Virus record (IMG/VR): IMGVR_UViG_3300031772_000043
Span: 1 to 58,395 of that record
Reading direction: 5' to 3' (one strand)
Length of the DNA: 58,395 nucleotides
Source of the DNA: a virus
Shown: in pieces, positions 21,322-49,004 of the stretch
Numbering within the stretch: position 1 is the stretch's first letter
How the letters are laid out: each line of letters opens with the position of its first letter
Translations under genes and position numbers: made by a program
Notes under the pieces: generated by a model
What the model saw: only the letters and a program-made list of their open reading frames with translations
What the model was told of the DNA's origin: nothing
The model's database searches: none

Positions 21322-21719
21322 TACGCACAAAGTATCCAGATGGAAAGGGAGGGTTTTTTAAACCTCGGACAGGTAAACTCATTGCTCAGGGCGCGCACGC
21401 TTCGCTGAAGGTGTTGCTCGACCTCATGAGCGCATGGCGAGACACTGACGCCGTGACGCGAGCTCTTACCGTCGAGTCTGGAAGTGCCATCCAGGATTGG
21501 CTAGATGGGTCTTTCACGAAGATCTGCGTGAGCGTCGACTCCGAAGAAGAACTACTGGAAATCTATGAGAAGGCAAAGAAGGCCCTAGTCCCCTGCGCTT
21601 TAATCCAGGATAGCGGACGAACTGAATTCCATGGCGTGCCTACTAAAACCGTAGTTGCGGTAGGGCCCGCATGGTCTGACGAAATAGACCTCATTACTGG
21701 AGGTCTACCTCTGCTATGA
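21294..21719 (+). CDS. Peptidyl-tRNA hydrolase, PTH2 family
   Basis: 141 residues from GTG 21294, with a GAGGAGG site inside the upstream gene. Matches PTH2 in order: GKLIAQGAHASLKV, FTKICVSVDSEEELLEIYEKA, CALIQDSGRTEF, TKTVVAVGPAWSDEID and ITGGLPLL. PTH2 enzymes release peptides from peptidyl-tRNA that has dropped off ribosomes; they are typical of archaea and eukaryotes and scattered in bacteria and phages. Could recycle tRNAs during intense phage translation. Ends in an ATGA overlap with the methyltransferase gene. Confidence 0.85.
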   Translation: MSITKQVLVIRTKYPDGKGGFFKPRTGKLIAQGAHASLKVLLDLMSAWRDTDAVTRALTVESGSAIQDWLDGSFTKICVSVDSEEELLEIYEKAKKALVPCALIQDSGRTEFHGVPTKTVVAVGPAWSDEIDLITGGLPLL

Positions 21720-26293: not shown

Positions 26294-26635
26294 ATGCGTG
26301 ACTTCAATGGAAAGATCAAAGCAGTAAGTAGGAGAATCGCACACTTGCGTTCCCGCGTTACTGACAACAATGTCAGTGAAAAGTCTGCCGCATATGACAG
26401 GGCTGAAGTTACAGCCCTTTCTGACTTACTTCGTGTGGCCGCTGTGTACAATGACGCCAGAGGACCTGAAGGCTCTCACGTAGAGAACACGCTATACATG
26501 GTTCAGGACGTTATCAGTACCACCCTGGCCAGCACCCAAGACGCACCTACCAAGGAGCGTCTCCAAGAGGCGTGGAATCGGTGCAGTGAGAGCCTAAGAG
26601 TCATCCGAAAAATGGCGGACGATGAAAAGACTTGA
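26294..26635 (+). CDS. Unrecognised 113-residue helical protein
   Basis: First gene after repeated element copy 5. Helical throughout with many charged residues and no Cys. Overlaps the exonuclease gene by 14 bases. No family recognised. Confidence 0.6.
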   Translation: MRDFNGKIKAVSRRIAHLRSRVTDNNVSEKSAAYDRAEVTALSDLLRVAAVYNDARGPEGSHVENTLYMVQDVISTTLASTQDAPTKERLQEAWNRCSESLRVIRKMADDEKT

Positions 26636-27485
26636 GAGTGTAAGACCCCGATACGTAGTGGTCGATTTCCAGAACACACTCTGGAAATCCTGGATGGTAA
26701 AACCTGCAGCAGGCGAAGACCTCCTCAGGTCCGACGGGTATCCAACAGGACACGTATTTCGTTTCTTTCGCACTATTCACAAGTGGAAACGAGATTTCGC
26801 TGGGCACCTTGTGTTTTGCTACGAGGGAGGGGAACGCTATCGCTACGAGCTATTCCCTGGGTATAAGGCCGGGCGCAAGGACAAAAGTCAAGACTTTGAC
26901 CCCGCACCAGATGTGGTCAAGCTGCTGAGCCTGGTCCGGTGTACTGAGCTAAAACCCGTAGAGGCCGAAGCTGACGACGCTATAGCTGCCTTTGTCTCCA
27001 GGCACCCCGAAGCCAACCATCTAATTTTGAGTTCGGACAAGGACCTGTGGACCTGCAGGGGACCCAACGTTGAGATCGTTTCGTTTCAGGAAATTCTGTC
27101 TGAGAAAGACATCGAAAAATCCTGCGAAAAGCATTTTGGAGTTTTGCCTCACTCTATCACCTTAGCGAAGGCGTTGTTTGGAGATAAGAGCGACGGGTTA
27201 CCCGGAGTCCCCCGACTGCTGAAGAAACACGTGGCAGACGTGCTAAAAACAGCAGAGAGCCCCGACGACTTCTACAAATCCATCGCCAAAGTACCTGCGT
27301 CTACTCGGGATAAGCTGTGGGCCCACGAAGAGCAAGTCAGGAACATGCATCAAGTTGTGCAGCTGCGACGGGACGTAAAACTACGAAAGCGGGAACGTGA
27401 AGGGGATGAAAGCGCTCTGCGCCGGTTCCTGACCACCTTCGAATGTGCTTCGTTGGTGCCTCACGCTAAGTTTATGTGCACGTAG
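26622..27485 (+). CDS. 5'-3' exonuclease / flap endonuclease (PIN-like FEN family)
   Basis: 287 residues. VVDFQNTLW gives the first Asp; EAEADD (114-119) and SSDKDL (137-142) give the acidic metal cluster; GDKSDGLPGV is the helix-hairpin-helix entry. This is the 5' nuclease that removes RNA primers and flaps in replication, as in T5 D15 or the N-terminal domain of DNA polymerase I. No polymerase domain is fused. It sits at the head of the replication block with dUTPase and helicases. Confidence 0.9.
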   Translation: MKRLESVRPRYVVVDFQNTLWKSWMVKPAAGEDLLRSDGYPTGHVFRFFRTIHKWKRDFAGHLVFCYEGGERYRYELFPGYKAGRKDKSQDFDPAPDVVKLLSLVRCTELKPVEAEADDAIAAFVSRHPEANHLILSSDKDLWTCRGPNVEIVSFQEILSEKDIEKSCEKHFGVLPHSITLAKALFGDKSDGLPGVPRLLKKHVADVLKTAESPDDFYKSIAKVPASTRDKLWAHEEQVRNMHQVVQLRRDVKLRKREREGDESALRRFLTTFECASLVPHAKFMCT

Positions 27486-27507
27486 ACTTGTCCTGTAAAA
27501 CAGCGCT

Positions 27508-27807
27508 ATGGCGACTGCTGTAGAGTTCCAAAACGTGCTAGAATTAGTCCAGCACCTTTGCGAGGAGTTGGTGGATGATCCCGATTCTGTAGAGGTAGTT
27601 GGGGCATACGTGGGAGTGACTGGAGCCATCCAGATCACGGGGCCCACCAGTGAGATCGCCAAGATCATCGGTTCCAACAAGGCCAGAATTTCAGCAATAG
27701 AGTCCATAGTCGGTGCAGTATCGGCTAAGTATGGATTTCGCGTCTTGCTGAACGTGTTGAACAACGAGAAAAAGCGTGCGCTAGAAGAGGGTCACGAAGA
27801 TGTCTAA
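27508..27807 (+). CDS. KhpA-like KH-domain RNA-binding protein
   Basis: 99 residues with the single-KH layout of bacterial KhpA: a helix, LVDDPDSVEVV, a strand AIQITGPTSEIAKIIG, the loop G-S-N-K in place of the usual G-x-x-G, a helix ARISAIESIVGAVSAKYG, then the strand FRVLLNVL. KhpA binds RNA, often with a partner KhpB, and affects translation and cell division in Gram-positives. The altered fourth loop residue may change RNA affinity. Lies directly before dut; no strong ribosome site was seen at ATG 27508. Confidence 0.75.
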   Translation: MATAVEFQNVLELVQHLCEELVDDPDSVEVVGAYVGVTGAIQITGPTSEIAKIIGSNKARISAIESIVGAVSAKYGFRVLLNVLNNEKKRALEEGHEDV

Positions 27808-28249
27808 GAGGGAAAGTACCGCAACGATAGTCAAGTTTCAGCGTTTGAACCCAGATGCCGTCATTCCTGAGAAGGCATCTTTAGGCGCCGCAGGCTTCGA
27901 CCTTGTCTCTGTGGAAGACGCCACCATCAAACCCATGGATCGCGCCGTCATCAGCACCGGTATCGCAATGGAGGTTCCGCCTGGGTTCGAGGCGCAGGTG
28001 CGCCCCCGCAGTGGCCTAGCTGCCAAGTATGGGGTAACCGTGCTGAATTCTCCAGGCACCATCGATTCAGACTACAGGGGCGAGGTCAAGGTCATCCTGC
28101 AGAACTTCGGACCTACGTTTGTTGTCAAGAAGGGCGAACGAATTGCCCAAGTGGTAATTCAGCGCGTACCTTCCATCCAATTCGAGACCGTCGAAGAGCT
28201 TACCGATACAACCCGAGGTACTGGCGGTTTAGGCAGTACAGGACGATAA
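27800..28249 (+). CDS. dut: dUTP diphosphatase
   Basis: 149 residues with all five trimeric dUTPase motifs in order: AAGFDLVS, RPRSGLA, GTIDSDYRGE, KKGERIAQVVIQ and, at the C-terminus, RGTGGLGSTG. It converts dUTP to dUMP and PPi, keeping uracil out of phage DNA and feeding dTMP synthesis. The Gly-rich last motif closes over the neighbouring active site in the homotrimer. Overlaps the KH gene by 8 bases and the helicase gene by one. Confidence 0.97.
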   Translation: MSKRESTATIVKFQRLNPDAVIPEKASLGAAGFDLVSVEDATIKPMDRAVISTGIAMEVPPGFEAQVRPRSGLAAKYGVTVLNSPGTIDSDYRGEVKVILQNFGPTFVVKKGERIAQVVIQRVPSIQFETVEELTDTTRGTGGLGSTGR

Positions 28250-30975
28250 TGGGCGACAGCCCAGAGAAGACGAAGCTCTGCGTTCTGAATAACGTTCTGT
28301 GGGTCCCCACCCAGTACGTAGATCAAGACGTAAAAGAAGAGTTTACTTACCGATTCGAAGAGATCGAATACCAACCCATGTTGGACCTCCCCCAGAAGTG
28401 CGCTAATTGCGAACTTTGGGGTAAAAAGTGGAGACCAGGTTCGATGACGTGTGCCCAGAAGGGATACACGCTAGAGGATATCTGCAAGAGCTTCAGCCAC
28501 AAGAAAATGCCGGTTTCCAAGGAAATCGTACTCAAGACGTACCGAGAGCGCCACGACGGATGGACTCAGTTTGCCCGCGGAGACCTGGGAAAAATTCGAA
28601 GGTGTTTCCGGGAACTTGGGATTGATGATCAACGAGTTGCGCCGGAATTGGGGTTTGACCTGACCTGTCACCGGGCGCTGTATGAGGAGCAACAGCAGGT
28701 AGCGGAGGCCTGGCTCAAGAAGGGCTACGGACTTATTCAGGCTCCGACGGCATGGGGGAAGTGTCTCGGACGCGGTACTCCTGTACTAATGTACGATGGC
28801 AGCACCAAGGCTGCCGAAGACGTCCAAAAGAACGACCTTCTGATGGGCCCAGACAGCCTGCCACGTCGAATTGTTTCCACGGTGCAAGGGAGAGAACCCA
28901 TGTACCGTGTGACGCCAAAAAAGGGTGATCCATACGTAGTTAACGAGTCACACATATTGTCTCTGAAACTGAGTAAATCCAAAGGTTCAGACAGTGTCGA
29001 CTTAGTAAACATCAGCGTAAAAGACTACCTGAAGAAAAACAAGTGGTTTAAGCACCGCGCTAAGGGCTGGAGAGCCGCTATAGATTTCCAGTCGGGCGCT
29101 CCACTGCACCCTGATCTTCCTCCTTACTTGTTGGGAATATGGCTAGGTGATGGAGCTTCAAAGTTACCGGCTGTCACCTCCGCAGACCCTGAAATTGTGG
29201 AGATGTTGCAAGAGTATGCGAGTACACGTGGTCTAAGTCTTCGTGTGGATGCATCGGGTGGTAGGTGTCCGACATATCACGTCACGACCAAGTCAGTAGG
29301 GCGGGCGTATCGAGCCAATGCCCTGGTGAACGCACTCAAGGACCTTGGACTGTGGGCCAACAAGCACATTCCTCACCAGTACAAGACAGCGTCTAGAAAT
29401 GATAGGCTACAGCTTCTGGCGGGGCTAATAGACTCTGACGGGCATTTGAAACTTGGTGGGGGTTACGATTTCATATCCAAAAATGAGTCGCTTGCTGACG
29501 CTTTGTGCTTCGTAGCTAGGTCGTTAGGCCTGGCTGCGTACAAACAGGAATGCCGTAAACGGTGTACTAACAACGGCGTGGAGGGAACCTACTATAGAGT
29601 GGGCCTGTCCGGAAACGTAGGTATCATACCGTGTCGAGTTTCCCGGAAGACGTCTGTTATCCCGAGAACTACTAAGAAAGACCCCCTTGTCGTGGGGATC
29701 AAAGTAGAACCTATTGGAGATGGTGACTATTTTGGTTTCGAAATAGAGGGACCTGACCGACTATTCCTTCTAGGTGACTTCACTGTCACTCACAACACTG
29801 TCGTGTGGGCGTGGTTAGTCGCACGCCTAGGCTATCGAGTGATTCTACTTGCTCAGGAAGTACGACATCTCATGGTCGGCTTCGAAGGACTATACGAACA
29901 CACGAATATCGCAGAGCTAGAGGAAGCCCACGGAGAACACCTGATCGGGGTCCTCAACAAAGACTGGTCTTGGGGCAAGGATCAGGATGGGACCCGAATA
30001 CGTAAGTTCGTGGACCGACCCGGCAAGTATTATCCGATTACGTTTGCCACCTTCCAATCATTGGCGTCCAAGCGCGGCGTGAAGATGCGGAAGAAGTTGA
30101 AGAATTACTTCGGACTGGTTTGGTGTGAAGAGTGTCACCATGAGTCCGCGCCTACCTTTCACGCTGCCACTAAGTCATTCAACGCCAAGTATCGTGGGGG
30201 TCAGACGGCTACCCCTTCGCGCAAGGACCAAACTCATGTTGCCATCTTCGATACCCTGGGCCCGGTTACAGCCCGTGGGCACAAGGAGCAACTAACTCCG
30301 ATCGTGAAATTTCACGCCACGAACATCCATGTTCCAGACAGCGTATTTCGTGGTCGATACATCATACCGATGCTGGTCAACTTCTTAGCCCGAAACGCCC
30401 ACTACCAGGATTGTCTCTACGAAGAGATCATGAAGGAATGCGAAGAGGGTCGAAAGATTCTGGTCGTCACCGAACGCCGAAACCAGGCGATGAGACTACG
30501 GCAGAAAATCAAACTCCAAGGCCATGGGTGTGAACTCATGATTGGCGGCCAGAAGCTCAAGGAACAGAACTGGTACGCGGAAGAACTTATGTCGGGAAGG
30601 CTGAGTGTCATCATAGGTACTCAGGTGATCAACGAGAACGTGAACATCCCGCCTCTTGACTCCATCCACCAGCCCTTCCCGAACTTTGGCAAAGAGCGAG
30701 AAGAGCAACGAGTGGGAAGAATTAGAAGACCTCTTTCTTCCTCAAACCTCGCCTACCTTCAAGACAACAACATCGTGTGGGAGAAGCCACAGCCTAGAGT
30801 ACACGTCTACACGTGGTATTCGGGGCACAATATGGCGGGCTCCGCAGTTGGGTTTCGAGAGAAACTCTACAAGAAGTGGGGGTTCACCTTTGACCAGCCG
30901 GTGGAAGAACTTCCAAAAAAGCGACGCGCCAAGACCATGAAGGACTGGCTAGAAGAGTTCAAGGGCGATGAGTAA
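28249..30975 (+). CDS. Superfamily 2 helicase interrupted by an intein
   Basis: 908 residues before splicing, 563 after. The N-terminus has a Cys cluster (CANC ... C ... C, residues about 45-80). The Walker A motif APTAWGK-T is split by the intein between Lys171 and the +1 Thr517. Later motifs: CEECHHE (DEAD-box-like, acidic pair at 627-628), a TATPSR block for motif III, and EEQRVGRIRRP for motif VI. SF2 helicases of this RAD25/UvsW-like type unwind branched or origin DNA. Splicing is needed to rebuild the ATP-binding loop. Overlaps dut by one base. Confidence 0.9.
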   Translation: MGDSPEKTKLCVLNNVLWVPTQYVDQDVKEEFTYRFEEIEYQPMLDLPQKCANCELWGKKWRPGSMTCAQKGYTLEDICKSFSHKKMPVSKEIVLKTYRERHDGWTQFARGDLGKIRRCFRELGIDDQRVAPELGFDLTCHRALYEEQQQVAEAWLKKGYGLIQAPTAWGKCLGRGTPVLMYDGSTKAAEDVQKNDLLMGPDSLPRRIVSTVQGREPMYRVTPKKGDPYVVNESHILSLKLSKSKGSDSVDLVNISVKDYLKKNKWFKHRAKGWRAAIDFQSGAPLHPDLPPYLLGIWLGDGASKLPAVTSADPEIVEMLQEYASTRGLSLRVDASGGRCPTYHVTTKSVGRAYRANALVNALKDLGLWANKHIPHQYKTASRNDRLQLLAGLIDSDGHLKLGGGYDFISKNESLADALCFVARSLGLAAYKQECRKRCTNNGVEGTYYRVGLSGNVGIIPCRVSRKTSVIPRTTKKDPLVVGIKVEPIGDGDYFGFEIEGPDRLFLLGDFTVTHNTVVWAWLVARLGYRVILLAQEVRHLMVGFEGLYEHTNIAELEEAHGEHLIGVLNKDWSWGKDQDGTRIRKFVDRPGKYYPITFATFQSLASKRGVKMRKKLKNYFGLVWCEECHHESAPTFHAATKSFNAKYRGGQTATPSRKDQTHVAIFDTLGPVTARGHKEQLTPIVKFHATNIHVPDSVFRGRYIIPMLVNFLARNAHYQDCLYEEIMKECEEGRKILVVTERRNQAMRLRQKIKLQGHGCELMIGGQKLKEQNWYAEELMSGRLSVIIGTQVINENVNIPPLDSIHQPFPNFGKEREEQRVGRIRRPLSSSNLAYLQDNNIVWEKPQPRVHVYTWYSGHNMAGSAVGFREKLYKKWGFTFDQPVEELPKKRRAKTMKDWLEEFKGDE
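28762..29796 (+). mobile_element. Intein with LAGLIDADG homing endonuclease
   Basis: Residues 172-516 of the helicase (345 residues). Starts with Cys172 (CLGRGTPVLMYDG, splicing block A), has NESHILSL for block B, two LAGLIDADG helices (LLGIWLGDGAS and LLAGLIDSDGH), a FGFEIEGPDRLFLLGDF block F and terminal HN with +1 Thr. All residues needed for self-splicing are present. The insertion lies in the Walker A Gly-Lys-Thr, a favoured intein site because any disruption kills the host gene. Confidence 0.93.
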
Positions 30976-31123
30976 CGATGCGTTGTGGTTCACCCTCAGG
31001 TGGACAGGGTCTGGGTACATAGTCGGCGTGGGGTTGATGTGTACGGACTACTTCTATCTGCAGACTGCGGGCTGGTGCCTGTTAGTAGCGGCGTCGGTGG
31101 CGTTTCTAGCTCGGACAAAATAG
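30968..31123 (+). CDS. Small membrane protein of 51 residues
   Basis: ATG 30968 overlaps the helicase stop. The product has two hydrophobic segments (about residues 16-27 and 34-48), with W, Y and F at the edges and an Arg-Thr-Lys end. Lies between helicase and exonuclease genes. Function unknown; the start lacks a strong separate ribosome site, so translation may be coupled. Confidence 0.55.
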   Translation: MSNDALWFTLRWTGSGYIVGVGLMCTDYFYLQTAGWCLLVAASVAFLARTK

Positions 31124-31132
31124 GAGTGTAAG

Positions 31133-31780
31133 ATGAGCCGCAAGAGCAGCAAGGAAGTTTTCTTTAGCCTCGACATAGAGGCAGATGGGCCCATTCCAGT
31201 TAGAAACTCGATGCTATCTCTGGGGGCCGTAGCTTTTGACGAGACCGGAGCCGAGGTCGGATACTGGGAAGCCAACCTGGCCCCCTTACCCGGGGCGGCG
31301 CAAGATGAGCGCACGATGCGTGATTTTTGGAACAAGAACCCTGAGGCCTGGGCGTACTGCACATCCAACGTTCAGGACCCGGCTGTAGCCCTTCCCGCCT
31401 TTGTGCAGTGGGTGAATTCAGTCGGAGCCGACAAGCAAAAAGTAGCGGTAGCTTTTCCCTCGGGCTTTGATTTCACGTGGATCTACATGTACTTGATGAT
31501 GTTCGGAGGGCAGAGTCCCTTTAGTTTCTCGTGTATCGACATCAAGTCTTACGTGTCCGCCATGAGGCGTGCTCCTTACCGTGATTGTAGTAAGCGTACC
31601 TGGCCCGCGCGCTGGTTCGAACCCAAGTTGAAGCACACGCACAAGGCCGTGGACGACGCCAGAGAGCAGGGTCTCTCCTTCATGAAGATGAGAGCCGAAA
31701 ATCTGTCTCCGTCTACAGACGGGATCGTTTATGAGATCGGTCTCGTGTCCAACAATTTCTGGGACAGCCAAAAGCCATGA
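31133..31780 (+). CDS. DnaQ-like 3'-5' exonuclease (DEDDh)
   Basis: 215 residues from ATG 31133 (TAGGAG upstream). FFSLDIEADGP provides the first Asp-x-Glu pair, FDFTWIYMYL the middle Asp, and HTHKAVDDAREQG the His-Asp of the DEDDh motif. Such nucleases proofread DNA or trim RNA (as in RNase T). No polymerase is fused. Next to a DnaB-type helicase and an SF2 helicase, consistent with replication or repair. Confidence 0.85.
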   Translation: MSRKSSKEVFFSLDIEADGPIPVRNSMLSLGAVAFDETGAEVGYWEANLAPLPGAAQDERTMRDFWNKNPEAWAYCTSNVQDPAVALPAFVQWVNSVGADKQKVAVAFPSGFDFTWIYMYLMMFGGQSPFSFSCIDIKSYVSAMRRAPYRDCSKRTWPARWFEPKLKHTHKAVDDAREQGLSFMKMRAENLSPSTDGIVYEIGLVSNNFWDSQKP

Positions 31781-32343
31781 GGTCGGGCCGTAGAACACAA
31801 GACTACCATCTGATCAAGACACAAGCTGACGCTCTGTTCTATGCAGCAGACATCCCGTCAACTGCCTGGGGTCCGCTCCTTACGGAGGAACCTCGATTCA
31901 AGCTAGTTGTGTTAGACGACAACAACGTCTCCCCGAAAACGCAGGCTGAGTGGTTTGCCCGGCTCAGGGAAAAGGAGTTTTTCAGCCATCCCTACCTTAT
32001 CCTTATCTCTTCGGATGTGGACGACTCGCTCTCCACCGGCATCGGCTACGACATCATGAAGAGAGCGTTGTCCAAAGAGATCAGAGTTCAGATTACGGAG
32101 TCGTCCCGGATTTCTACGGAGGTCGTAAACGAGGAAACCGTGTTCATGCTTACAAACCTGACTGATGAGGCTCCGCCCGAGCGCATCCAGTCAGCGCGAG
32201 ACTGGTGCTATCGACACCAAACTTGCTTTCGTTTGATTTGCGCTACCGGGGACCCAGCTAGTCTTCTGCGCCGAATGAAACTCAAGTTCAACGCAGCTTT
32301 TTACTTGGACTCTAGGATAGTCGTAGAGAAAACACTCGCATGA
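31777..32343 (+). CDS. Unrecognised 188-residue protein, NTPase-like without Walker A
   Basis: Sits between the exonuclease and the DnaB-type helicase with ATGA overlaps on both sides. Repeating strands LVVLDD, LILISS, VFMLTN and LICATGD are reminiscent of the core of an ASCE NTPase (Walker B and sensor 1), but no phosphate-binding loop is present. Could be a helicase loader or clamp-loader-like accessory protein; this is inference from context. Confidence 0.55.
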   Translation: MRSGRRTQDYHLIKTQADALFYAADIPSTAWGPLLTEEPRFKLVVLDDNNVSPKTQAEWFARLREKEFFSHPYLILISSDVDDSLSTGIGYDIMKRALSKEIRVQITESSRISTEVVNEETVFMLTNLTDEAPPERIQSARDWCYRHQTCFRLICATGDPASLLRRMKLKFNAAFYLDSRIVVEKTLA

Positions 32344-33671
32344 AGATCATTCGTCCCAAGTCAGAAACAAAAGCTATTCTCTCCTGTCTCCAGAGCAATA
32401 ATAAGGTAAAGACAGAATTGCTGGGCAGGCTGTCGCCAGACCACTTTGGTTACCGGCCCATGAACAACGCGTTCCGTATCATCGAAAAGATGATGACGCA
32501 TTCGGCCCTGGACCTGCCCTCCATGGAGACCTTCCTAGAGTCTCCAGAACTAGATCAAGAGACAGCAGACCTCCTCAAGGCGCCCACCGTCAGCCCCATC
32601 CAGAAGCCTGATGATGCTCGTCGCCTAGTAGACATCCTGGAGCACTACCGGGTTGTCAGAAGGTTTTACCAGTTTAGTCAGGGAACCATATCAGAGCTGA
32701 AGCAAGCGACAACTGTCGATTTGTCTGCCCTGATGGGAGACATGGAATCGTGCTTGAGCGATATGAGGTCAGACGCTGACGAAGCGCCGTTGTACCACGT
32801 CGGAAAGGGTGCAGAGGATGCGGACTCAGACCTGCTGATGGAGGAAGTGTTTTCGAACGATGTGGTCAAAATCATCCCGAGTACCTTCGGCAACTTTGAT
32901 CGCATCGCGGGCGGGTTTGGTCTAACAGACCTGTTCATCCCTGCCTCACACAAGAAAGGGGGTAAATCAATCCTGACGCTAAACATGACGGCAAACATGT
33001 ACACGCTCAACAACGTGGACGTGATCTACATCCCTCTTGAAATGAGCAAGCAGGAGACGGCAGAGCGACTTATTTCTCGCCTGTCTGGAGTGGAGCATAC
33101 CCGCATCCGCACGAAGACTACATCTTCTACGGAAATAAGCATCATGCAGAAGGCATGGCGCAGGTTCAAGGCGCATGGCCAAAAACATGGATGCCGGTTC
33201 ACTGTTTGGCCTGCGTCACACGTCACGATCCCCCACCTTCGACTAAAGCTGAAGCCGTTCAAGTACAAAGTCATTGTCATTGACTACATCAATCTTCTCG
33301 ACCATCCTCACGCAGACAAGCTTCAGGAGTGGCAGAAGCTCAACGAGCTTGCACGAGAACTGAAGCTCCTTACCAAAGACCTGGAGGCGCTCATCATAGC
33401 TCCTACCCAGATGAATGAGGACGGGTCTTTGCGCTACGCTAGAGGCCTTGCAGAGCACGCAAACACTGTGTGGACCTGGAAATACGGCGAAGAAGAACAG
33501 GGAACTCACATTATTACGATTGACCAGCCTGCAGTACGAGGCTGGGCACCCTTCAAGTTTCAGCTTCTAGAAGACTTTTCTAGAATGGCTATTTCGGACC
33601 ACCACGGGGGAGACCCCGATTTTGATATGGGCAAGAAAACAAAGGTAGACACTATGAAAGGAATTCGTTGA
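32340..33671 (+). CDS. DnaB-type replicative helicase
   Basis: 443 residues. The N-terminal helical domain (about 1-150) is followed by a RecA-like core: degenerate Walker A SHKKGGKS (203-210, Ser for the first Gly), EMSKQETAERLISR, Walker B VIVIDY with Asp315, and the DnaB-like APTQMNEDGSLRYARGLAEHA block. A ring helicase that drives the fork. The unusual first P-loop residue is tolerated in some DnaB-like proteins. Next gene starts two bases after the stop. Confidence 0.85.
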   Translation: MKIIRPKSETKAILSCLQSNNKVKTELLGRLSPDHFGYRPMNNAFRIIEKMMTHSALDLPSMETFLESPELDQETADLLKAPTVSPIQKPDDARRLVDILEHYRVVRRFYQFSQGTISELKQATTVDLSALMGDMESCLSDMRSDADEAPLYHVGKGAEDADSDLLMEEVFSNDVVKIIPSTFGNFDRIAGGFGLTDLFIPASHKKGGKSILTLNMTANMYTLNNVDVIYIPLEMSKQETAERLISRLSGVEHTRIRTKTTSSTEISIMQKAWRRFKAHGQKHGCRFTVWPASHVTIPHLRLKLKPFKYKVIVIDYINLLDHPHADKLQEWQKLNELARELKLLTKDLEALIIAPTQMNEDGSLRYARGLAEHANTVWTWKYGEEEQGTHIITIDQPAVRGWAPFKFQLLEDFSRMAISDHHGGDPDFDMGKKTKVDTMKGIR

Positions 33672-33672
33672 G

Positions 33673-33891
33673 ATGCCGAAGGACTCACACGTTCAGATCA
33701 CTGGGACTATCAGTGACGTTCATCCTGGAGGGCAGTTCGCTGTTACTCTGGAGACAGGGATTAGTGTAACTGCCCGTCTCTGTGGGAAGATGCGCAAAAA
33801 CAGAATCCGGGTTATCTTGGGAGACACAGTGGAGGTTTCACTATCTCCATATGACCTAACCCACGGAATTGTAACATTTCGGCATAAGTAA
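33673..33891 (+). CDS. infA: Translation initiation factor IF-1 homologue
   Basis: 72 residues, the same length as bacterial IF-1. Single OB fold with the conserved tract GKMRKNRIRVILGDTVEV, the closing SPYDLTHGIVTFR, and an N-terminal GTISDVHPGGQFAVTLE strand pair. In bacteria IF-1 fills the ribosomal A site during initiation. A phage copy could bias initiation towards phage messages or support translation when host factors fall. Two bases after the helicase and overlapping the next zinc protein by one base. Confidence 0.9.
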   Translation: MPKDSHVQITGTISDVHPGGQFAVTLETGISVTARLCGKMRKNRIRVILGDTVEVSLSPYDLTHGIVTFRHK

Positions 33892-34112
33892 TGCGACCCA
33901 CCCTCGCTCATTGCGGCAAATGCAACGCTCAGGTGTCTATCCTTTCTAAGGAAAGGGCGCCGACTACTTGTCCCCTATGCAAGCAGTCGTTGAGGTTTGA
34001 GACATTCGGCGTCTGTGCTTCCTGTCAGTGTAAAGTGGGCAAGGGTGTCATAAAGTGTGAAGCGTGTAAACTGACTACAGACCCGTCCTATGCGGGAAAA
34101 CCTCCCAGGTGA
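33891..34112 (+). CDS. Small protein with two zinc ribbons
   Basis: 73 residues with four C-x2-C pairs: CGKC, CPLC, CASC (followed by QC) and CEAC. The spacing suggests two stacked ribbons, as in ribosome- or RNA-polymerase-associated small proteins. It begins one base into the IF-1 stop (TAATG). Confidence 0.65.
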   Translation: MRPTLAHCGKCNAQVSILSKERAPTTCPLCKQSLRFETFGVCASCQCKVGKGVIKCEACKLTTDPSYAGKPPR

Positions 34113-34115
34113 GTC

Positions 34116-34361
34116 ATGCAGGTACAGTGTAAAAACTGCGGTTTCAACGGTTCGTTTGTAGGCGGCGTAGGCGAGCGGCCAACAACGTGTCCCGTTTGTC
34201 GTACAGCCTCTTTGGCCTATCCCGTGCCCACAACTGCTTGCCTCCAGTGTAATACGAATTTCCCTACGCCTGACCCTACGTGCCCTGCGTGCGGTGTAGA
34301 CCGGCTAACTAGAGGGCGTTCCGTAGAAAACCCGACGGCTGCCCCTCAGCCTATCAAGTAG
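34116..34361 (+). CDS. Small protein with two zinc ribbons
   Basis: 81 residues with CKNC, CPVC, CLQC and CPAC pairs, a close structural analogue of its upstream neighbour though little conserved otherwise. Pro/Ala tail. May have arisen by duplication of the adjacent gene. Confidence 0.65.
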   Translation: MQVQCKNCGFNGSFVGGVGERPTTCPVCRTASLAYPVPTTACLQCNTNFPTPDPTCPACGVDRLTRGRSVENPTAAPQPIK

Positions 34362-34366
34362 GTTTC

Positions 34367-34756
34367 ATGCCAAATTTTGTGTCTCCGTCTCAGTTACTTC
34401 GCAAGAAGTACGAAGTGCGCAAGCATGACATCGTAAAGGCAGCGCCGATTCCCGTAAGCGAGATATGTAATTCTTGCTGGTACAGGGACATGTGCATCTT
34501 TAGGACTCTTTTACGCCAACCTCCTAGGACATGCTGCGTATACGAGCTTTTCGGGGACCAAGGCAAGCAAGAGACCACCATTGAAGAGCTTGTAAAGTTC
34601 ACATGCGATAATCGTTGCGTAACCCGCAGGACATGGGTAGGGGACCCGTGCCCTCACGACGCTAGCTACTGTGAAAATCACTGCCCCGTCTCGAAGCACA
34701 TCATGGGAACAGGGCCCTCAAAGGCAGATGATGTGCCTTACGAAAGCTTCGGATGA
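34367..34756 (+). CDS. Cys-rich 129-residue protein
   Basis: Ten Cys, arranged CNSC ... C ... CC, then C-x3-C ... C ... C ... C. The pattern could hold zinc or an iron-sulfur cluster. Basic N-terminus (LRKKYEVRKHD). Ends in an ATGA overlap with the phosphatase gene. No family recognised. Confidence 0.6.
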   Translation: MPNFVSPSQLLRKKYEVRKHDIVKAAPIPVSEICNSCWYRDMCIFRTLLRQPPRTCCVYELFGDQGKQETTIEELVKFTCDNRCVTRRTWVGDPCPHDASYCENHCPVSKHIMGTGPSKADDVPYESFG

Positions 34757-35211
34757 CCCATTTCTTTCCAGTTCGACAGAGTTACGACTTTGTACAGCCC
34801 AACATTGCGATGGGTGGGGCAGTGTTAGACTCTACCGCACTGTTTGAGGAGTTTGACATTATCGTGATGTGCGCTGGCGAGTGGCAGCCCACCCTTACGT
34901 TGCCGGAAGACCGCACAAAACGGGTCATTCGCCTACCATTTGACGACACCTATGAGGCTCTCATTCCTAGCGTCCTTCGTTCGCTCCACCTAACGGCAAA
35001 CGAGTTGGTGGCGCAGCACAAGACCGGAAAAAGAATCCTCATCACGTGTATGGCAGGCCGAAATAGAAGCGGAATTCTAGCAGGGCTAGTGCTCATGAAA
35101 CGATTTGGCATGTCAGGCGATGAAGCCATTCTAGTGATCCGAGATGCGCGTGGGCCTGCTGCTCTGTCAAACCCCTCTTTCTCCTCCTACCTCCAGAGTC
35201 TTCACCTATGA
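34753..35211 (+). CDS. Dual-specificity protein phosphatase-like protein
   Basis: 152 residues. P-loop C99-M-A-G-R-N-R105-S gives the Cys nucleophile and phosphate-binding Arg of DSP/tyrosine phosphatases. FDDTYE upstream can supply the general-acid Asp. A compact family member that would remove phosphate from protein or RNA 5' ends. In phages its target is unknown. ATGA overlap upstream and ATG overlap with the clamp gene. Confidence 0.8.
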   Translation: MTHFFPVRQSYDFVQPNIAMGGAVLDSTALFEEFDIIVMCAGEWQPTLTLPEDRTKRVIRLPFDDTYEALIPSVLRSLHLTANELVAQHKTGKRILITCMAGRNRSGILAGLVLMKRFGMSGDEAILVIRDARGPAALSNPSFSSYLQSLHL

Positions 35212-36284
35212 AAATTACACTAGAAGGTCCCGCGTTTAGGGATGCCATGAAGACTGCCGCCGTCCTCTTTGACGCGGAGATTGAGGTACTCGTAACGGCA
35301 GACGCGGCTGCCGGGACGCTGGTCCTGGAATCCGGTCGAAATGGTGTGTACTGCAAACAGAGTATTGAAGCAGACGTGGAAGAAGAAGGAGCTATAGTTC
35401 TGTCTTGTGCTCACTTCTCAACCTTAGCGTTTCAGGAACAGTTGTATCTCGAATCCGACGGCAAGCACATCGAGTTTCGGTCGGGCAAGTTCAAGGGCAC
35501 CGTGGCTGGCAGCGCGGATGGAGGGGCCATCGAGGCGCAGCGTCCGGAAAAGCTGTTCAAGGTGACCGCAACCCTCCCTACTGACATTTTCAGGTCCGCT
35601 GTCGCTCGCGTAGCTTTCGGGTCTGCGCTCCCCGGTGCGCAGGCTGGAATTAGGGTTCAGGCCGCAGACAAGCTGACGGTCTCCACCACAGACCAATACC
35701 GAGCCACTCTCTACAAAGAAGACCTGGCTGTGCATCAGGCTGAGTTCGATATTCTGCTGCAGCCCGTGTTCCTGAATACAATCTTGGGCAGGATTCAGGA
35801 CATGGAGGTAGGACTCGGAGCCTCCAGAGGTACGTTTAGAATTCGCACCTTGGGGTTAGATGTGTTCCACCCAGCGATCCAATCCAAGCCCGAAGACATC
35901 GAAGAGTGGATTACCAACGGCATCGACCACAGTAAACGAATCTGTGCGGTGACCTCTACGGCAGAGGAGTTCGCGCAGGCCCTAAGAGAGGTGTCTTCCA
36001 TCCACATGGGGGCGCTGTCCTATGACACGCATGTTGACTGCATGATCAAAGGCGACAAAATTCATATGAGATGCACGGCGGACCACGGCAGTGTTACCAC
36101 CTCTCTTGCGCTGCAGAAATCAGACGCGGAGAAGTTTTTGACGAAGCTGTCTTCCCGCTACACAATGGAACTAATGAACCTGATCAAAGCTGGACCTATT
36201 GAAATCGAATTCTGGGCAGACTTTATCCTTGTTTCTGGGCTCTCAGGAAAATTCAAGGGTCTAATCCCCACGGTCGCCGCCTGA
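35208..36284 (+). CDS. DNA polymerase sliding clamp (DnaN-like)
   Basis: 358 residues, close to bacterial beta clamp length (about 366). Three sequential beta-rich repeats of about 120 residues fit the three-domain clamp fold. Recognisable elements are VSTTDQYRATLYKE (cf. ATDGHRLA in DnaN), a VFLNTILGRI helix, and a C-terminal FILVSGLSGKFKGLIP. The clamp would tether the phage polymerase, which is not in this window. Similarity is moderate. Confidence 0.65.
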   Translation: MKITLEGPAFRDAMKTAAVLFDAEIEVLVTADAAAGTLVLESGRNGVYCKQSIEADVEEEGAIVLSCAHFSTLAFQEQLYLESDGKHIEFRSGKFKGTVAGSADGGAIEAQRPEKLFKVTATLPTDIFRSAVARVAFGSALPGAQAGIRVQAADKLTVSTTDQYRATLYKEDLAVHQAEFDILLQPVFLNTILGRIQDMEVGLGASRGTFRIRTLGLDVFHPAIQSKPEDIEEWITNGIDHSKRICAVTSTAEEFAQALREVSSIHMGALSYDTHVDCMIKGDKIHMRCTADHGSVTTSLALQKSDAEKFLTKLSSRYTMELMNLIKAGPIEIEFWADFILVSGLSGKFKGLIPTVAA

Positions 36285-36688
36285 TGCTAAAAGATCTATC
36301 CATACCTTGGAACACGCTTCCCGAGGGTAAGGTCGTCTGTCAGACGCCTTTGCTCTGGGTTGTGCGTACCGGCGTGGTAGTGAACAAGCCTAAGAGACAG
36401 AAGAAGTTCGAAGACGGAAACATTCTGCTATCTCTGATGGAGGGCGAGACGAACTCTGTTTTAGGCTATGTCCTGCAGCCTAAAAAAGAGTTTCATGCGG
36501 TATTCTGTCAGGAGTCTTACGTGTCCTTCCTGGCTGAAGTGGAGGGGCACACAACTCCTAAAGTCCTATACAAGGATCAAAAGGTATACCTCTACCGATT
36601 CAACTCGAACAAGGCACCCAGTTACTGGTTCTTGGTGCGCAACAGGATCACAGCTATTCCGGCCACTCCAGAAGTAGAACAGAGTTAA
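36284..36688 (+). CDS. Unrecognised 134-residue protein
   Basis: TGATG overlap with the clamp gene. Beta-rich with aromatic residues in YVLQPKKEFHAVF and a basic stretch (KPKRQKKFEDG). Its position between clamp and exonuclease suggests a replication role, by context only. Confidence 0.55.
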   Translation: MLKDLSIPWNTLPEGKVVCQTPLLWVVRTGVVVNKPKRQKKFEDGNILLSLMEGETNSVLGYVLQPKKEFHAVFCQESYVSFLAEVEGHTTPKVLYKDQKVYLYRFNSNKAPSYWFLVRNRITAIPATPEVEQS

Positions 36689-36690
36689 AC

Positions 36691-37434
36691 ATGCCTAAGA
36701 AATGTATTGTGCTGGATATCGAGTCAGTTCCGGCACATGCTGCAGTGTTAGACGAAAAGGGTCACGACTTCGCCCTCCCTATCTTTCACCGCATTGTATG
36801 TCTGTCCTACGCAGTTCTGGATGGGTCTTTCAAGGTGACTGAAGTGGGTACGTTGGGCCTGAACCGGCAGTCAGAAGAAGACGCTATCCGCCACCTGTCG
36901 TCCTTGATCGACAAAGACACGATGATTGTAACGTGGTCGGGACGCAGGTTCGACATGCCGGTATTTCTTTACCGGGCACTTGCCTACGGCATCCCGTGCC
37001 CGTGGTACTTCAAGAATGAATTCGACAAGAGATTCACTCTAACAGGACATTTCGACCTGCAGGACAACATGATGCTGTTCGGGGCTGCGGATAAAATTCG
37101 GCTAGACCACGCTGCTGCCGTTATAGGGTTGCCAGGGAAGATGGACGTAGCTGGCGCTGACGTAGCAGACTTGTGGGCCCGAAATAGATTTTTGACCATT
37201 GGTACCTACTGCGTAACCGACGTAATTCAAACTGCAATCCTGTTTATACGCTGGGCTTTTCTTCGCGGGCTAGCTACTGCAGACGAAGTTAACGGGGCGC
37301 TAAACTCAATTGCGTCTTATCCCTCTACGACTTATCTACCAACTGACGCCGCTTCACTCGTGTCTGTCGCAGAAGGCATCAAAAAAGTAGTTAGTAATTG
37401 CGACTGGGACTCTCTCAAGATCGTCAAGAGATAG
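36691..37434 (+). CDS. PolB-like 3'-5' exonuclease (predicted)
   Basis: 247 residues. VLDIESVP gives the Asp-x-Glu, VTWSGRRFDMPVFLYRA the second Asp, HFDLQDNM a further acidic residue, and YCVTDVIQTAIL the last Asp, as in the stand-alone PolB-type exonuclease family (PF10108). No polymerase domain. Presumably proofreads or trims DNA for the replication complex. Confidence 0.8.
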   Translation: MPKKCIVLDIESVPAHAAVLDEKGHDFALPIFHRIVCLSYAVLDGSFKVTEVGTLGLNRQSEEDAIRHLSSLIDKDTMIVTWSGRRFDMPVFLYRALAYGIPCPWYFKNEFDKRFTLTGHFDLQDNMMLFGAADKIRLDHAAAVIGLPGKMDVAGADVADLWARNRFLTIGTYCVTDVIQTAILFIRWAFLRGLATADEVNGALNSIASYPSTTYLPTDAASLVSVAEGIKKVVSNCDWDSLKIVKR

Positions 37435-37985: not shown

Positions 37986-38056
37986 TCGGGGCTCGTCCAA
38001 TGGCAGGACAGTGGACTTTGGATCCATGAATGGGGGTTCGATTCCCTCGCCCCGAA
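37986..38056 (+). tRNA. tRNA-Gln (anticodon TTG)
   Basis: 71 bases without encoded CCA. Acceptor TCGGGGC/GCCCCGA, D-stem GTCC/GGAC, anticodon stem GTGGA/TCCAT with loop CTTTGGA (TTG), T-arm GGGGG-TTCGATT-CCCTC and discriminator A. U1:A72 is typical of bacterial tRNA-Gln. Folds as a standard cloverleaf. Confidence 0.93.
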
Positions 38057-38072
38057 TGTTGATTATGACTAT

Positions 38073-38143
38073 TCCGGGATCGTCTAATGGTAGGACGGCG
38101 GACTCTGACTCCGCTAATGTTGGTTCGATCCCAGCTCCCGGAA
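38073..38143 (+). tRNA. tRNA-Gln (anticodon CTG)
   Basis: 71 bases. Acceptor TCCGGGA/TCCCGGA, D-stem GTCT/GGAC, anticodon stem GCGGA/TCCGC with loop CTCTGAC (CTG), T-arm GTTGG-TTCGATC-CCAGC and discriminator A. Sixteen bases after the TTG-Gln gene, so both Gln codons are served from one transcript. Confidence 0.93.
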
Positions 38144-38146
38144 TGC

Positions 38147-39436: not shown

Positions 39437-39437
39437 T

Positions 39438-39524
39438 AGAGGGTTGGCCGAGTGGTCTAAGGCGGCGGTTTTGAAAACCGCTGAACCCTAACGGGTTCCG
39501 GGGGTTCGAATCCCTCACCCTCTG
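39438..39524 (+). tRNA. tRNA-Ser (anticodon TGA)
   Basis: 87 bases with the long variable arm typical of tRNA-Ser (CCC/GGG helix between anticodon and T arms). Acceptor AGAGGGT/ACCCTCT, anticodon stem GCGGT/ACCGC with TGA, T-arm GGGGG-TTCGAAT-CCCTC and discriminator G. CCA not encoded. Confidence 0.95.
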
Positions 39525-39542
39525 TTAGAATGGAGTCCCAAG

Positions 39543-41073: not shown

Positions 41074-44000
41074 CTATATCCCACTCAGATCTATATCCAG
41101 ATCTTCGCTGTTGATTGCGTCCAACGCCGTTTGTACTCTAGGCATGATTGTCTCGTAGAGAGACAGCAGGTCCGGACGCTTCTTTTGTAGAAGAAGCTTG
41201 AAGGCTAGAGCCGAGGGCGAATTGTTCTTCGTGCAGAACTCGATGGCCTTCTCGTACAGGGCGTGTAGAGCAGCCTTGTCAGGCTTTGGACGTGGTGTTA
41301 CGGGCGTTGCAGGGGCGGAGACTGCCGGGGCCGCTGTCGGGGGCTTAGGCGCGTCTACGGTCTCCTCTACAAACGGGACCTCATCCAGAAGCCGCTGCTT
41401 CTCTTTCGGCGGCAGGGGGAGAGCCTCTATGACCGTCTTGAGTTCCTCTGGAGTATATGCGCGCAAGGACACTATCGCCCGGACTCGCTTAAGGCGACGT
41501 ATACTGTCATCCTTGTCCTGAGTCAGAAGACCTTTCAGATTCTCCAGGCGACTGGGCTTAGAAGGAGGAGCGGGCGGGGCCTCTTCAAGCGCCTTTTTCA
41601 GCGCGTTGATGGCGTCTGAAGCCTCGCCCTTTGTCCACGGCGGGGCCCCCAGGTCGGTTACCTTGGGGCGTCCCAGCTTCTTCAGCTCGGCTTCAAGTTC
41701 CTGTACCTTAGCCGTCTGCTTTTCAGTAGCCGGATCGCTACGCCACTCGCCCTTGGGACGTGCAGGTGCAGCAACCGGAGGCGCGATAGCACCCAGAGGG
41801 TCTTGTCCCGCCTGAACCTGTCTAAGATAATTGGCAAGTCCCTGTAGGTACTTGATAAAGCCCTGCTTAGCGGTGGAGGACAGATCCTTGGACTTGATTG
41901 CCTTAGCTACTTCGCTATAGGTCAACCCCTTCAGCCCTGTCTCAAGCTCTCCGTTGAGAGTGAGCAGTTCTTCGGGCGTCAGACCCGCCTGCCTTGTCAC
42001 GTAGTCTAGGATTTCTTCCGTGACCTGAATATTGCCCAATTCCTTTGGCAGTCGACCCCTGGGCTTCTGTTCTGAAGGTGCGGGAGCCACTGCGGGCGCA
42101 GGCGCAGCGACCGGTGCAGGCATCCGGAGAATTTTACCCAGTGCTAGAATAGACCCGTCTTTGGCCACAGGGACGAAAGCTAGGTCTTCTGCCTGGATAT
42201 CTTTCTTTACCTGCAATGAGATGTAGCCCGCATCCGCTGCCTGAAGAAGGGCATTCTTAGCGGCATCCGGAGACACTTTTCCTTCAAGACCCTGTACCAC
42301 GTCAGCAACGTTGAACCCGCTCTTGGTCTCATTTGCCTTCACTGCATCAAGGACCTGAACCACAACAGCTTGGTCAACCTTTTTTCGGATGGTCGGAGGA
42401 GGCCCCTTGGGCTTTTTCTCTTCCTTAGGCACGCTCTTTGGTTCGGCAGCCGTTGGTTCTGGCAACTGGATACCCGGGATATCCGCGTCCTGCAGACCAT
42501 TTTCGTGCATGTACTGAATCAGGTCATCAAACAGAACTGCTGCAGGTCCCTTCAACGGGGCCCTAACCTTCTGAAGTCCGCTCTTCTGCACTGTCCGCAA
42601 TAGCGACAGGGCGGTACTAGAATCCTCGGCGTCCAGTTCGAACTCCGTAGACATCATGTTCCAGATGTTCCGCTGCAGTCGGGCCTTGGCGGTATCGCGC
42701 TGCGCGGGTTCCTCTTCGTCGTCCGGAGTGACCTCGTCCGACGTAAGGAAATCCACCGCTTGCTGCAACTCAGGAGAGAACGTCTTTCCTCGTCCTCTTA
42801 GGGTGTCTGTAAGCTCTTCTTCCTCTTCTTCGGAGACGGAAGCGGGTTCCGGCATATCTGCCGCTAGCTCGTCTGCGTTGAAGTCGGGCTCGTTTTCTTC
42901 TACAGCCTTTAGATTTGGAGTTCCATCCTTGGCAAAGTAGGACTCACGACCCCCTAGAGGTGGAATAGATACTCCACGGAAATCTGGCAAATGATCTGCG
43001 TTTACGAGACCCTTCTCCAGGAAGAATTCCGCGATGATTTCAACCACATTTTGAAGGACGGTGTCTTGAGTCTTTGCGGATGCTTGCTCCAGCGAAATGC
43101 TTTTTAGAACGCGAACTGCGTCCGCAAACATGTTCTTCTGGTCGTCATCCAGCTCGTACTCCTTTGCCATCTCATCAAAGATCGTACTACGTAGTTCTTT
43201 ACGCTCCGCCTCTTCTGGAACCGGAGGCTTGGCCTCTAGAATTTCCTGCAGCGATGGAACGGCTTCCACCGGGGCTTCTTTCGCTTGCGCCGGATGGCTG
43301 AATTCAATCCCAGTCAAAGAACTGAAGTCGGGGTGCCCAGGAACACCAGAATCGAATTCTGCCCTGTTCTTGCCCAGGTGTACGAGAATCTTCTTTACGA
43401 GAGGCGTGTATGCGGGACGCTTATCCAGTAGGGCCTGAAAGATAGAGGCCGCAGTTCTGCCCTCTTCCATGTGAAGCTGAACGCTGACCATGATCTTGTA
43501 GGCAGTCTCTGCCTCGGACCTATTCAATCCCAGGGCCTTGACCATTACCTCGAAACTAGGAGTTCGCTCACCCGCTGCTGGCGAAATTTCTTCCTTCTGT
43601 TTCTCTGTGGCTGGCTTGATTTCATCCTGCTGCGTCGGAGAGGCGGGGGGAGCGCCTTCGCCGAACACCTTGTCGAGCCCGTAATTGTCTCGCATGTTCG
43701 CGAGACCCTTAGTCCTGTTCAGCCGATTCAGATAGTTCTTCATCTGCTGGAAGAGGTAGGTGAGGCTGTAGGGCTTTGCGTTCTTCTTATCCAGGGCAGA
43801 GAACTCTTCACCCATGGCGTCCAAGTCCTTACCGCTTTCGGCAAGGTCAGACATGCGTACAAGCATGTCTAGAACACGCTGTTCCGTGGCGGATACGGGC
43901 TCAATGCCGCCTTCAGTCCCCGCCTCCTCCTGCATCTGCTCTTGCAGAGAGCGGATGAACGGAGTCATCTGCTGTTCGAGAGGCTTTGTGTTGTCGAACT

Positions 44001-47000
44001 CTTTGGTTGTCGGAAACTTATGTGACCCATCGTAGAGGGACACGAGATTCCACTTGCCGTTTTCGGTCTTCAGATCGGAGTGCAACGAAAGGAAGAACGC
44101 CAAGCGCTTTGCCAGACTGAGAGCGGACGAGGCGTCTTCGCTCTTAGACGCCTTCAGTCCCTTCAGGATCTCGGGCATGGTCTTGCCACGGAGCATGACA
44201 CGAATGATATCGTGAAGGGTTTTGGCAGCTTCTTTGTTTCCCAAAGAAGGTTGAGCGTTTAGAAGGGACTCGACCGCCGAATCGTTGCTCGACAGATCCA
44301 GAGTCTTCTTCAGAATCTCTACCGGTTTGACGATAGAAACTCGATTCATATTTGTCAGGTCCCAGACTTCTGGAGATACCTTGATGTCCTCTCCATTGTC
44401 GATCAGGAACTCAGCAATAGACCGAATGACCTCGTTCTGGTCGGGAAGCGTCTGAGTCTCCGAGAAACCCGGCTTGAAGTCATGGATACTTTTACCCGCA
44501 GCAAAGTGCTTTCTTAGCGCCGACAGTAAGAGACCGAAGTTTTCAACGCGCTTCTGCCAGGCCTTCTTGGACTCTTCGGGATCCAGATGCAGCGAAACTG
44601 ACTGAAGCTCTTCAGCAAGCGTGCGCTCAGTATTTGTGGACAGCTCTGTTCCTTGGGGCTTGAATCGTACCTTGTCCCTCATATCCGCAATTTCGTCTGC
44701 GGACAAATCGGAAGTAACCTTATCGGCCTTCCCGCTGGGTGGTTTGATTCTGGTACTGTCGGGTTTCGACTCGATCGGTGCAGGTTCTGCCTTGGGCTTA
44801 GGAGCGAACTTTTCCGGAGCAGGCTGGTAAGGCTTGCGCGTGTCCTTTTCAACTCCTGGTCCCCACTCCACGCTCTCTTCTCCGGGCTTAAGAGAGCGGG
44901 GCGGCGAGTACCCGGGTCCTTTGACGTCGTCCTTACTCGGCAGTTCGAACATGTTTTCGACTGCGTAGCTGCCATCCCCACGAACCAAGTCGTCTCGATC
45001 CTGAAGGAAATTTCTTACGTTTTGGAGCAGACCCAACTCCTTGTTGGAGTTGTGATTCTTTAGGTGCTGTTCTAGCTTTTGCTGAAGAGGCTCAATCTTA
45101 GATTTGAGTTCTTCGCGCTTGGTGTCAACCGCGTCCTCTTGCTTGCGCAGAAGCTCCGTGAACTGTTGCTGCTGCTTGCGGATTTCCTCGATCTTTTGCT
45201 TTAGCTGCCGAAGGCCTTTGCGCACTTCCGCTTCAGCTTGGCCAACGATCTTTTCTCTCAAAGATCTCAGAGAGTCACGAGCTTCTTTGGACTCGGCCTC
45301 CAGGTCGGCGTAAGCCTCGTCAAGGTCTGCTCCCTTAGCGTCCTTCAAATACGCGTAGTTCTGAAGCTTCTCTTCTTTCCAGATGGCGTCAGCGCGCTCA
45401 GCAGGATCTTCAATCGCATCCACGTCTTCGGTATCGAAGACGTCAGAGATAGAACCCGACTTGATTGCAGCTAGCAACTCTCCGAGAAGCTTAGTCTCCT
45501 TCAGCTTCAGGGCCAGCTCTTGCGCACTTTCAGGTCCCGCCTGAGAAATAGCCTGGTCTCTTAGCTCTTCGCGGGCTTGTAGTGCGTCTTTACCGCTCTT
45601 CTGCAGTGTTTGAATCTGGGCCTTGGTGTTGGAGAGCGACTCTTTTAGTGCGTCCAATTCTGCGCGCAGACCGACCGATTTCTCGTCCAGGAGCTTGACG
45701 CCCTTTTCTGCTACGCGGTCTACATCCTTCTGCCTCTGATTGACGAGATCGTGAATTGAGCCTCCGGACTTGGCTGTGGATTCCAACTCCGTCATCAAGG
45801 CTTTGAGGAGTTCAGGATCTGCTTTGGGGAAACTCTTCTGTATCTGCTGGAAGAGAGGCACCTTAGGAGGTTCGACTCTAGGCTTCTTAGGCGTGAGAGC
45901 TTCGTTTCTCTCCATCGCACTAAGTTCGTCCCTAAAAGACGACTTCCCCACATGTTTTGTGTTGTACGCGACAAAGTCAGGGTACTTAGACTCGTAGAAG
46001 CTCTTGCGCTTCTCCAGGTCTGCATCAAACGCCGTCTCGAACTTCTTTAGGGCTCGCTCGTAGACTTTACGTATTACTGCCATAGCCTCTGGGGCAATTT
46101 GTCCATCTTCATCCACTTCAACGCCGAACTCGTCGGCTGCAATTTCCTGTAGACGTGCCCCGAGTGAAGACGCAGGGCGTTGACCTTCCGGAAGAATGTC
46201 GTGACTCTTATCCTCGTCGTCCTGGTCTCTACGCAGGTTTCCGGGGATGGCCCACATCCATCGCAGAATGTTTTCCTCGTCTTGAGGGAACTTAGACCTA
46301 TTAGCTCCCAGCAGACCGTTAAGGACGTGTTGAAACCCTGCTGCGTTTTCTTCCGACGCCTGATTTAGGTAGGATAGGAACTTGTCTTGAGCAAGGCCCT
46401 TTTCTCCCTTGCCTAGAAGCACCGCACTAAAGGGGTTTAGCATCCGACTCAGACCCTTGTCTGTTTCGGCCTTTTCCTTCAAAATTTCGACTAGGGTGTT
46501 TTGGGCCTTTTCCTGCTTGACCTTCAGAGCATTCATTTGGCTCTTGTATACTTTTGGGTCTTCCTTGCTGTAAGAGAAGGGGGGTCGAGCGGCGATCTCC
46601 TGGATAGAAAGACGCTTGCCCTCGGCGCCCACACCCATAATTCCTTCCAGAATGGTGCGCTCTTCTTCGTTCAGTCTGGGGTCATCCTCTACGGTTAGAA
46701 CTTCTCCCACCACGTCCAAGAGCTTGTCAATGTTTTCCTGGGCCAGGGCCTGCTCGGCGATAGACTCTGGATCCGCCCCTTCTTGGGCTGCCAGATCCAT
46801 AGGAGACAGGGCCTCTTCACCCTCCTCCGAGTCGGAGCCCGGAGCCGACGGGCTCACAAATCTCTTAGACCGAATTGTCTGGGTATAGCGAACCGTGACC
46901 GTGTCTCCTCCATTTTGAGGAGAGAACTCCAGGGTTCCTCCGAAAGGGTTAGCTCTATATTGGTTTTTCCCTACAACGCTCTGGCTTTCCAGTCCTGGTG

Positions 47001-48987: not shown

Positions 48988-49004
48988 TTACTGAGCCTCA
49001 GATA

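Follow-up and report, generated by a model that had tools for sequence, protein, structure and literature searches.

Initiation factor IF-1 is a small protein that aids ribosomes in starting translation, and phages can carry genes for it. Specifically, IF1 and IF3 genes were reported in huge phages in 2020, together with the idea that such phages hijack host initiation (Al-Shayeb 2020, PMC7162821), and an isolated phage of Sinorhizobium, Phosso (469 kb), also carries an IF-1 annotation. In a wider search, we find 133 viral contigs with an IF-1 match, a number that is an upper bound because some of the matched contigs are host DNA. One such contig (L030) encodes an IF-1 identical to that of E. 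coli and is host DNA. Likewise, the record filed as "Acinetobacter phage MD-2021a" (CAKLQH020000005.1; L223) is bacterial around infA (ansA, truA, leuB, leuC, leuD), and thus phage collections contain host DNA. Many of the IF-1 hits in phage collections carry no annotation. Given the 2020 report, phage Phosso, and the 133 contigs that form the upper bound, the notion that IF-1 is rarely reported in phages, put forward in a sequence-only reading of the locus described here, is outdated. Phage IF-1 as a kind is already known. Most of the phage IF-1s sampled are canonical, with R66 present in 55 of the 57 other distinct phage IF-1s, whereas the lineage considered here carries a non-canonical form. 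The lineage resembles the huge-phage precedent (PMC7162821) in having IF-1 along with other translation genes and in the ribosome redirection proposed for it; it differs in an apparently separate origin (AU p 0.036) and in a fixed place for the gene, behind dnaB.

The stretch of DNA analyzed, which we call the window, is a virus record of 58,395 bases. Because it is linear and has no terminal repeats, the window probably represents part of a larger genome. On its plus strand, at 33673-33891, lies an open reading frame of 72 amino acids that begins with the ATG at 33673 and ends with the TAA at 33891, the position at which the sequence-only reading had recognized an OB-fold IF-1. We confirm that this gene encodes an IF-1 homolog. 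The PF01176 profile search suggested in that reading gives a match over residues 8-70 with an E value of 6.5e-17 (61.4 bits, cut-off 30.2), and the NCBIfam equivalog model TIGR00008 (infA) scores 80.1 bits, above its cut-off of 61.15. When all six frames of the window are compared with a profile built solely from canonical, mostly proteobacterial, cellular IF-1 sequences, this reading frame is the one significant match (E 6.7e-27, 94 bits); the best score among 20 base-shuffled windows and the reversed window is 15 bits. The motifs GKMRKNRIR, GDTVEV, and SPYDLTHG, on which the original assignment relied, are all found in the protein. In addition, PHROG 30201, annotated as unknown function, covers the full length of the reading frame (E 2.5e-22), and this phage family can, on that match, be named as IF-1.

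The predicted fold agrees. An AlphaFold2 model made from 26 aligned sequences (pLDDT 87.4) has the strand order of IF-1: five strands (7-17, 21-26, 31-36, 52-57, and 64-70) form an OB barrel, and a short helix (39-42) follows the third of them. The 14 best Foldseek matches of the model in the PDB are all IF-1, including 1hr0_W and 9fco_I, two chains from 30S complexes. We considered and rejected other OB-fold proteins (Csp, S1, RsgA): the RsgA_N match is below its cut-off, and RsgA ranks far under IF-1 in Foldseek. Profile, tree, and fold thus all identify the protein as IF-1.

The protein is not, however, a typical IF-1. In a model of C. difficile IF1 on the 30S subunit, K39 contacts G530, R41 and R46 contact A1492/A1493, and H35, Y60, R64, and R66 lie on the side facing protein S12 (PMC10913371). 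Aligned with E. coli IF-1, the window protein keeps K39, R41, and R46 and carries the changes H35 to R, Y44 to R, K64 to H, and R66 to I. Because positions 35, 64, and 66 face S12 in the C. difficile model, the alteration falls on the S12 side. The window protein is like bacterial IF-1 (TIGR00008/PF01176) in length, OB fold, score over the curated cut-off, GKMRKN helix, K39, R41, R46, Y60, and R70. It differs in having H64/I66 for K/R64 and R66, R44 for the usual Y, and R35 for H; its loop reads HPGGQ where that of E. coli IF-1 reads LPNTM. The missing S12-side basic residues, K/R64 and R66, are the canonical norm and stand outside the formal family definition. Across the phage clade, R41 and H64 do not vary, and no copy has R at 66; at the other two decoding-center positions, L010 has D39 and L008 has H46.

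The same combination, H64 with a hydrophobic residue at 66, occurs in many chromosomal IF-1s of Myxococcota and Desulfobacterota (L087-L089, L178-L185, L224-L230, L284-L306), among loci that were drawn from top hits and whose residue fractions are not population frequencies. Because bacteria have the change in chromosomal IF-1s scoring above the infA cut-off, we take H64/I66 as the mark of a subfamily and not as grounds for exclusion from the family. Loss of R66 as a phage-specific adaptation is ruled out, since copies in Myxococcota and Desulfobacterota show it as well. Judged by these residues, the window IF-1 belongs to a non-canonical subfamily (H64, hydrophobic 66), a point that the sequence-only reading had missed. 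The Myxococcota copies resemble it further in the GGQF loop, RIRVILGD, and SPYDLTHG, at 60-61% identity (L087-L089). Many of them, unlike the window protein, have an apparent charged N-terminal extension and GRMRK in place of GKMRK. The extension appears in HGM-type Myxococcota IF-1s (L087, L089, L178-L184), for example GRRRKGRRRFDDSEQDDTRDDH, given putative start codons.

The location of the gene is as distinctive as its residues. The IF-1 ATG begins one base past the stop codon of a DnaB-type replicative helicase (32340-33671, plus strand; PF03796 E 2e-25, phrog_19 E 2.3e-48), and so the placement of IF-1 beside such a helicase in a replication block, as first read, holds up. A Shine-Dalgarno-like AAAGGA, with a presumed function in IF-1 initiation, lies within the last helicase codons (33657-33662, plus strand), 10 nt 5' of the IF-1 ATG; AAGGRA is present at about the same site in four of five relatives and absent from the fifth (L009). 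Downstream, the IF-1 stop overlaps (TAATG) the ATG of a small cysteine-rich, zinc-ribbon-like protein (33891-34112, plus strand) that has no family match in Pfam or PHROG profile searches, and a second small zinc-ribbon-like protein follows at 34116-34361 (plus strand; DZR_2 E 2.8e-4, under the curated cut-off). Profile searches and synteny together define a replication block of conserved order (26622-37434, plus strand): 5'-3' exonuclease, dUTPase-like protein (named from its sequence, not from a profile search), SF2 helicase, exonuclease-like protein, DnaB, IF-1, zinc ribbons, phosphatase, a 358-aa protein without assignment, and PolB-type exonuclease. Within this block, the SF2 helicase gene (28249-30975) contains an intein, with Hint and LAGLIDADG domains, that splits the Walker A motif (WGK/CLGRG). 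A larger insert occupies the identical site in one relative (L007:1415-5431, a 1339-codon frame), and three others (L008, L010, L011) have an uninterrupted WGKTV and no insert.

Five viral contigs, of 94, 164, 388, 424, and 392 kb, carry relatives of the window IF-1, and the block flanking IF-1 is collinear in all five. Their IF-1/DnaB identities are, in that order, 83/73, 71/69, 67/45, 68/63, and 79/80%. IF-1 is therefore conserved about equally to DnaB or above it. In the window and its five relatives alike (6 of 6 phages), dnaB is directly upstream of IF-1. Three of the five collinear contigs, at 388-424 kb, exceed the huge-phage threshold of 200 kb; the window itself is a 58 kb linear fragment. 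Among the six phage IF-1 copies, most pairs are saturated for dS, and dN is 0.12-0.32. The three computable pairs give omega values of 0.09-0.17, and these low values indicate that the gene is under purifying selection. Given its adjacency to dnaB, the collinearity, the conservation, and the purifying selection, IF-1 is fixed and under selection in this lineage, not a recent stray insertion.

Where the lineage obtained the gene can be approached from its cellular relatives. A profile made from the phage sequences only (A3) gives best scores of 118.7 bits in Myxococcota, 88.6 in Desulfobacterota, 86.7 in Pseudomonadota, and 84.2 in Acidobacteriota, from samples of 379, 99, 299, and 99 genomes, respectively, that cover part of the phyla only. 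In a species-level genome collection, the three best among the matches listed are Myxococcales/Deltaproteobacteria metagenome-assembled genomes at 60-61% identity; the Deltaproteobacteria contig among them is classed as Myxococcota in our tree. Some Myxococcota copies are carried by contigs of chromosome scale, at position 9.00 Mb in G406 and 9.30 Mb in G585. Thus, these copies are not stray phage DNA, and binning error is excluded as a general explanation. A 162-row IF-1 tree places the window in a set of 23 rows containing Myxococcota and phages only (support 98/93), made up of 14 Myxococcota rows, the one Deltaproteobacteria row, and 8 phage rows. That set is nested within 37 non-canonical rows (support 95/86). 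The alignment behind this tree has only 72 columns, and many of its forks are unsupported.

Two results set how firmly each part of the origin can be stated. With columns 35, 44, and 63-66 removed, the phages remain among Myxococcota, Desulfobacterota, and Acidobacteriota rows and the Myxococcota-only grouping is lost, and the test fails to reject (p 0.26) a topology in which the phages branch outside every cellular row of the non-canonical set. For these reasons, we place good confidence in the kinship of the window IF-1 with the non-canonical subfamily, as judged from sequence, and moderate confidence in Myxococcota being nearest to it; transfer would have run from host to phage. The Myxococcota relatives also hint at the identity of the virus host. 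As to whether phages obtained IF-1 once, forcing all phage IF-1s into one clade lowers lnL by 77.7 (p-AU 0.036), and so a single origin for all of them is rejected, weakly. Among open-licence papers, we found nothing relevant on IF-1 paralogs or on a phage IF-1 linked to Myxococcota.

Some of the bacteria in question carry more than one IF-1. Two IF-1 matches occur in several Desulfobacterota genomes; in G255 and G219, these are an HGL-type copy and a second match. In the Myxococcota genome G024, the infA in the secY-map-infA-rpsM-rpsK-rpoA region (L176) lacks the GKMRK helix and has RGRI, and a phage-like HGM-type IF-1 is present on another contig; the neighboring genes were named by reading translations, not by profile search. 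Each of the two G024 copies lacks features kept by the other. In L176 and in its counterpart in the Myxococcota genome G022 (L177), the IF-1-like protein is highly divergent and the GKMRK helix is missing (ATLSTQAKRVTVKVLPGD...).

The window contains a second translation-related gene, which encodes peptidyl-tRNA hydrolase 2 (PTH2; 21294-21719, plus strand; PF01981 E 1.9e-27). PTH2 is the archaeal/eukaryotic-type enzyme, and we find it in 12 of 21 IF-1-bearing phage contigs, including 2 of the 5 close relatives, and in none of the bacterial control genomes. As a host marker PTH2 is uninformative, occurring in 5 of 113 Myxococcota genomes versus 12 of 21 phage contigs. A linked kit of bS21 and IF3 with IF-1 was also considered and rejected, with bS21 and IF3_C in 0 of the 5 close relatives; together, the translation families tested besides IF-1 (PTH2, bS21, and IF3_C) form no uniform kit across these five. 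A tRNA search places two tRNA-Gln genes (TTG and CTG anticodons) at 37986-38144 and a tRNA-Ser gene (TGA anticodon) at 39437-39525, all on the plus strand. Elsewhere, a 106-aa reading frame (18317-18637) resembles the first part of ADP-ribosylglycohydrolase (PF03747) and may represent a gene fragment or a frameshift. On the minus strand, a 2637-aa protein (41074-48987) is accompanied by a run of large reading frames (49005-58332). Where tested, these large minus-strand frames (41074-58332) match no PHROG, nor any Pfam family over the cut-off; judged by their place, they probably encode virion proteins of a phage group about which little is known.

What might the phage do with IF-1? We consider it probable that a huge-phage lineage captured a non-canonical IF-1, likely from a Myxococcota-like host, for supplying or replacing host IF-1 during infection. 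Regarding 30S binding, expression timing, host identity, and the effect on initiation, we infer the following course. The lineage would have taken up an IF-1 of the H64/hydrophobic-66 type, which would then have become fixed in the replication operon directly behind dnaB. The Shine-Dalgarno-like sequence in the dnaB tail and the overlap of the IF-1 stop with the next start suggest that IF-1 would be translated with the helicase from one message, in the replication phase. Like other IF-1s, the protein would sit in the A site of the 30S subunit, via K39, R41, and R46 at G530 and A1492/A1493, and would supply or replace host IF-1 while phage messages dominate; we regard this role, that of an initiation factor bound in the A site, as its most likely activity. 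The altered S12-facing side may change the residence time on the 30S subunit or the start sites accepted. That the phage copy adjusts ribosome initiation, as the sequence-only reading proposed, is a plausible suggestion, and we find no support for its companion claim, that the copy lets the phage survive loss of host IF-1.

Within capture for supply or replacement, one of two outcomes is plain gene dosage: the protein would equal the main host IF-1 and keep the ratio of IF-1 to ribosomes high, with specificity unchanged. We give this outcome considerable weight, short of favoring it, and our confidence in it overlaps with that in the capture itself. Strong purifying selection on the phage gene is consistent with dosage, as is the presence of the same residue pattern in presumably functional cellular IF-1s, because of which the change facing S12 need not have arisen as an adaptation of the phage. 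However, the ribosomal region of G024 has a divergent IF-1 and the phage-like copy lies elsewhere, and so either of the two could be the main factor in such hosts. We regard as unlikely the more elaborate possibility that the protein is a specialized factor, of a subfamily kept by some bacteria as a second, unlinked IF-1, whose S12-side surface shifts start-site choice toward phage messages.

Other readings depart from initiation or from the phage altogether. IF1 from E. coli acts as an RNA chaperone and antiterminator and can substitute for Csps in B. subtilis (review PMC3017892). With that precedent and the location of the gene in a replication operon, the window protein could be a cold-shock-like OB-fold that melts RNA or promotes terminator read-through instead of serving the ribosome. 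RNA chaperone activity is a serious rival or side role, although as the sole explanation it is rather improbable: the contacts to the 16S rRNA decoding center (K39, R41, R46) are kept in most copies, yet those basic residues could serve both activities. The invariant H64 and the absence of R at 66 throughout the phage clade could instead fit an inhibitor that fills the A site, fails at proper initiation without the R66 contact, and dampens host translation. We find little to recommend this notion, since identical residues occur in bacterial chromosomal IF-1s and the phage depends on translation by the same ribosomes. Finally, some "phage" IF-1 records are host DNA, as the Acinetobacter record and L030 demonstrate, and the window or the gene might be bacterial DNA mis-filed as viral. 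This is extremely improbable: phage-type DnaB, phage-type 5'-3' exonuclease, large unassigned reading frames, and tRNAs share one contig with IF-1, and the synteny with five collinear relatives on long viral contigs refutes the reading.

As far as can be tested, what is new here is the non-canonical subfamily, the separate origin, the fixed dnaB-IF-1 arrangement, and the Myxococcota lead. These findings point to more than one acquisition of IF-1 among huge phages, and to one huge-phage lineage with a non-canonical IF-1 subfamily of which we found no description in open-licence papers. For this unassigned huge-phage group, Myxococcota offer a testable host lead. From the ribosome side, the phage protein represents a natural IF-1 variant in which the decoding-center contacts are kept and the S12 side is changed, and it could be useful for probing the role of the S12 contact.
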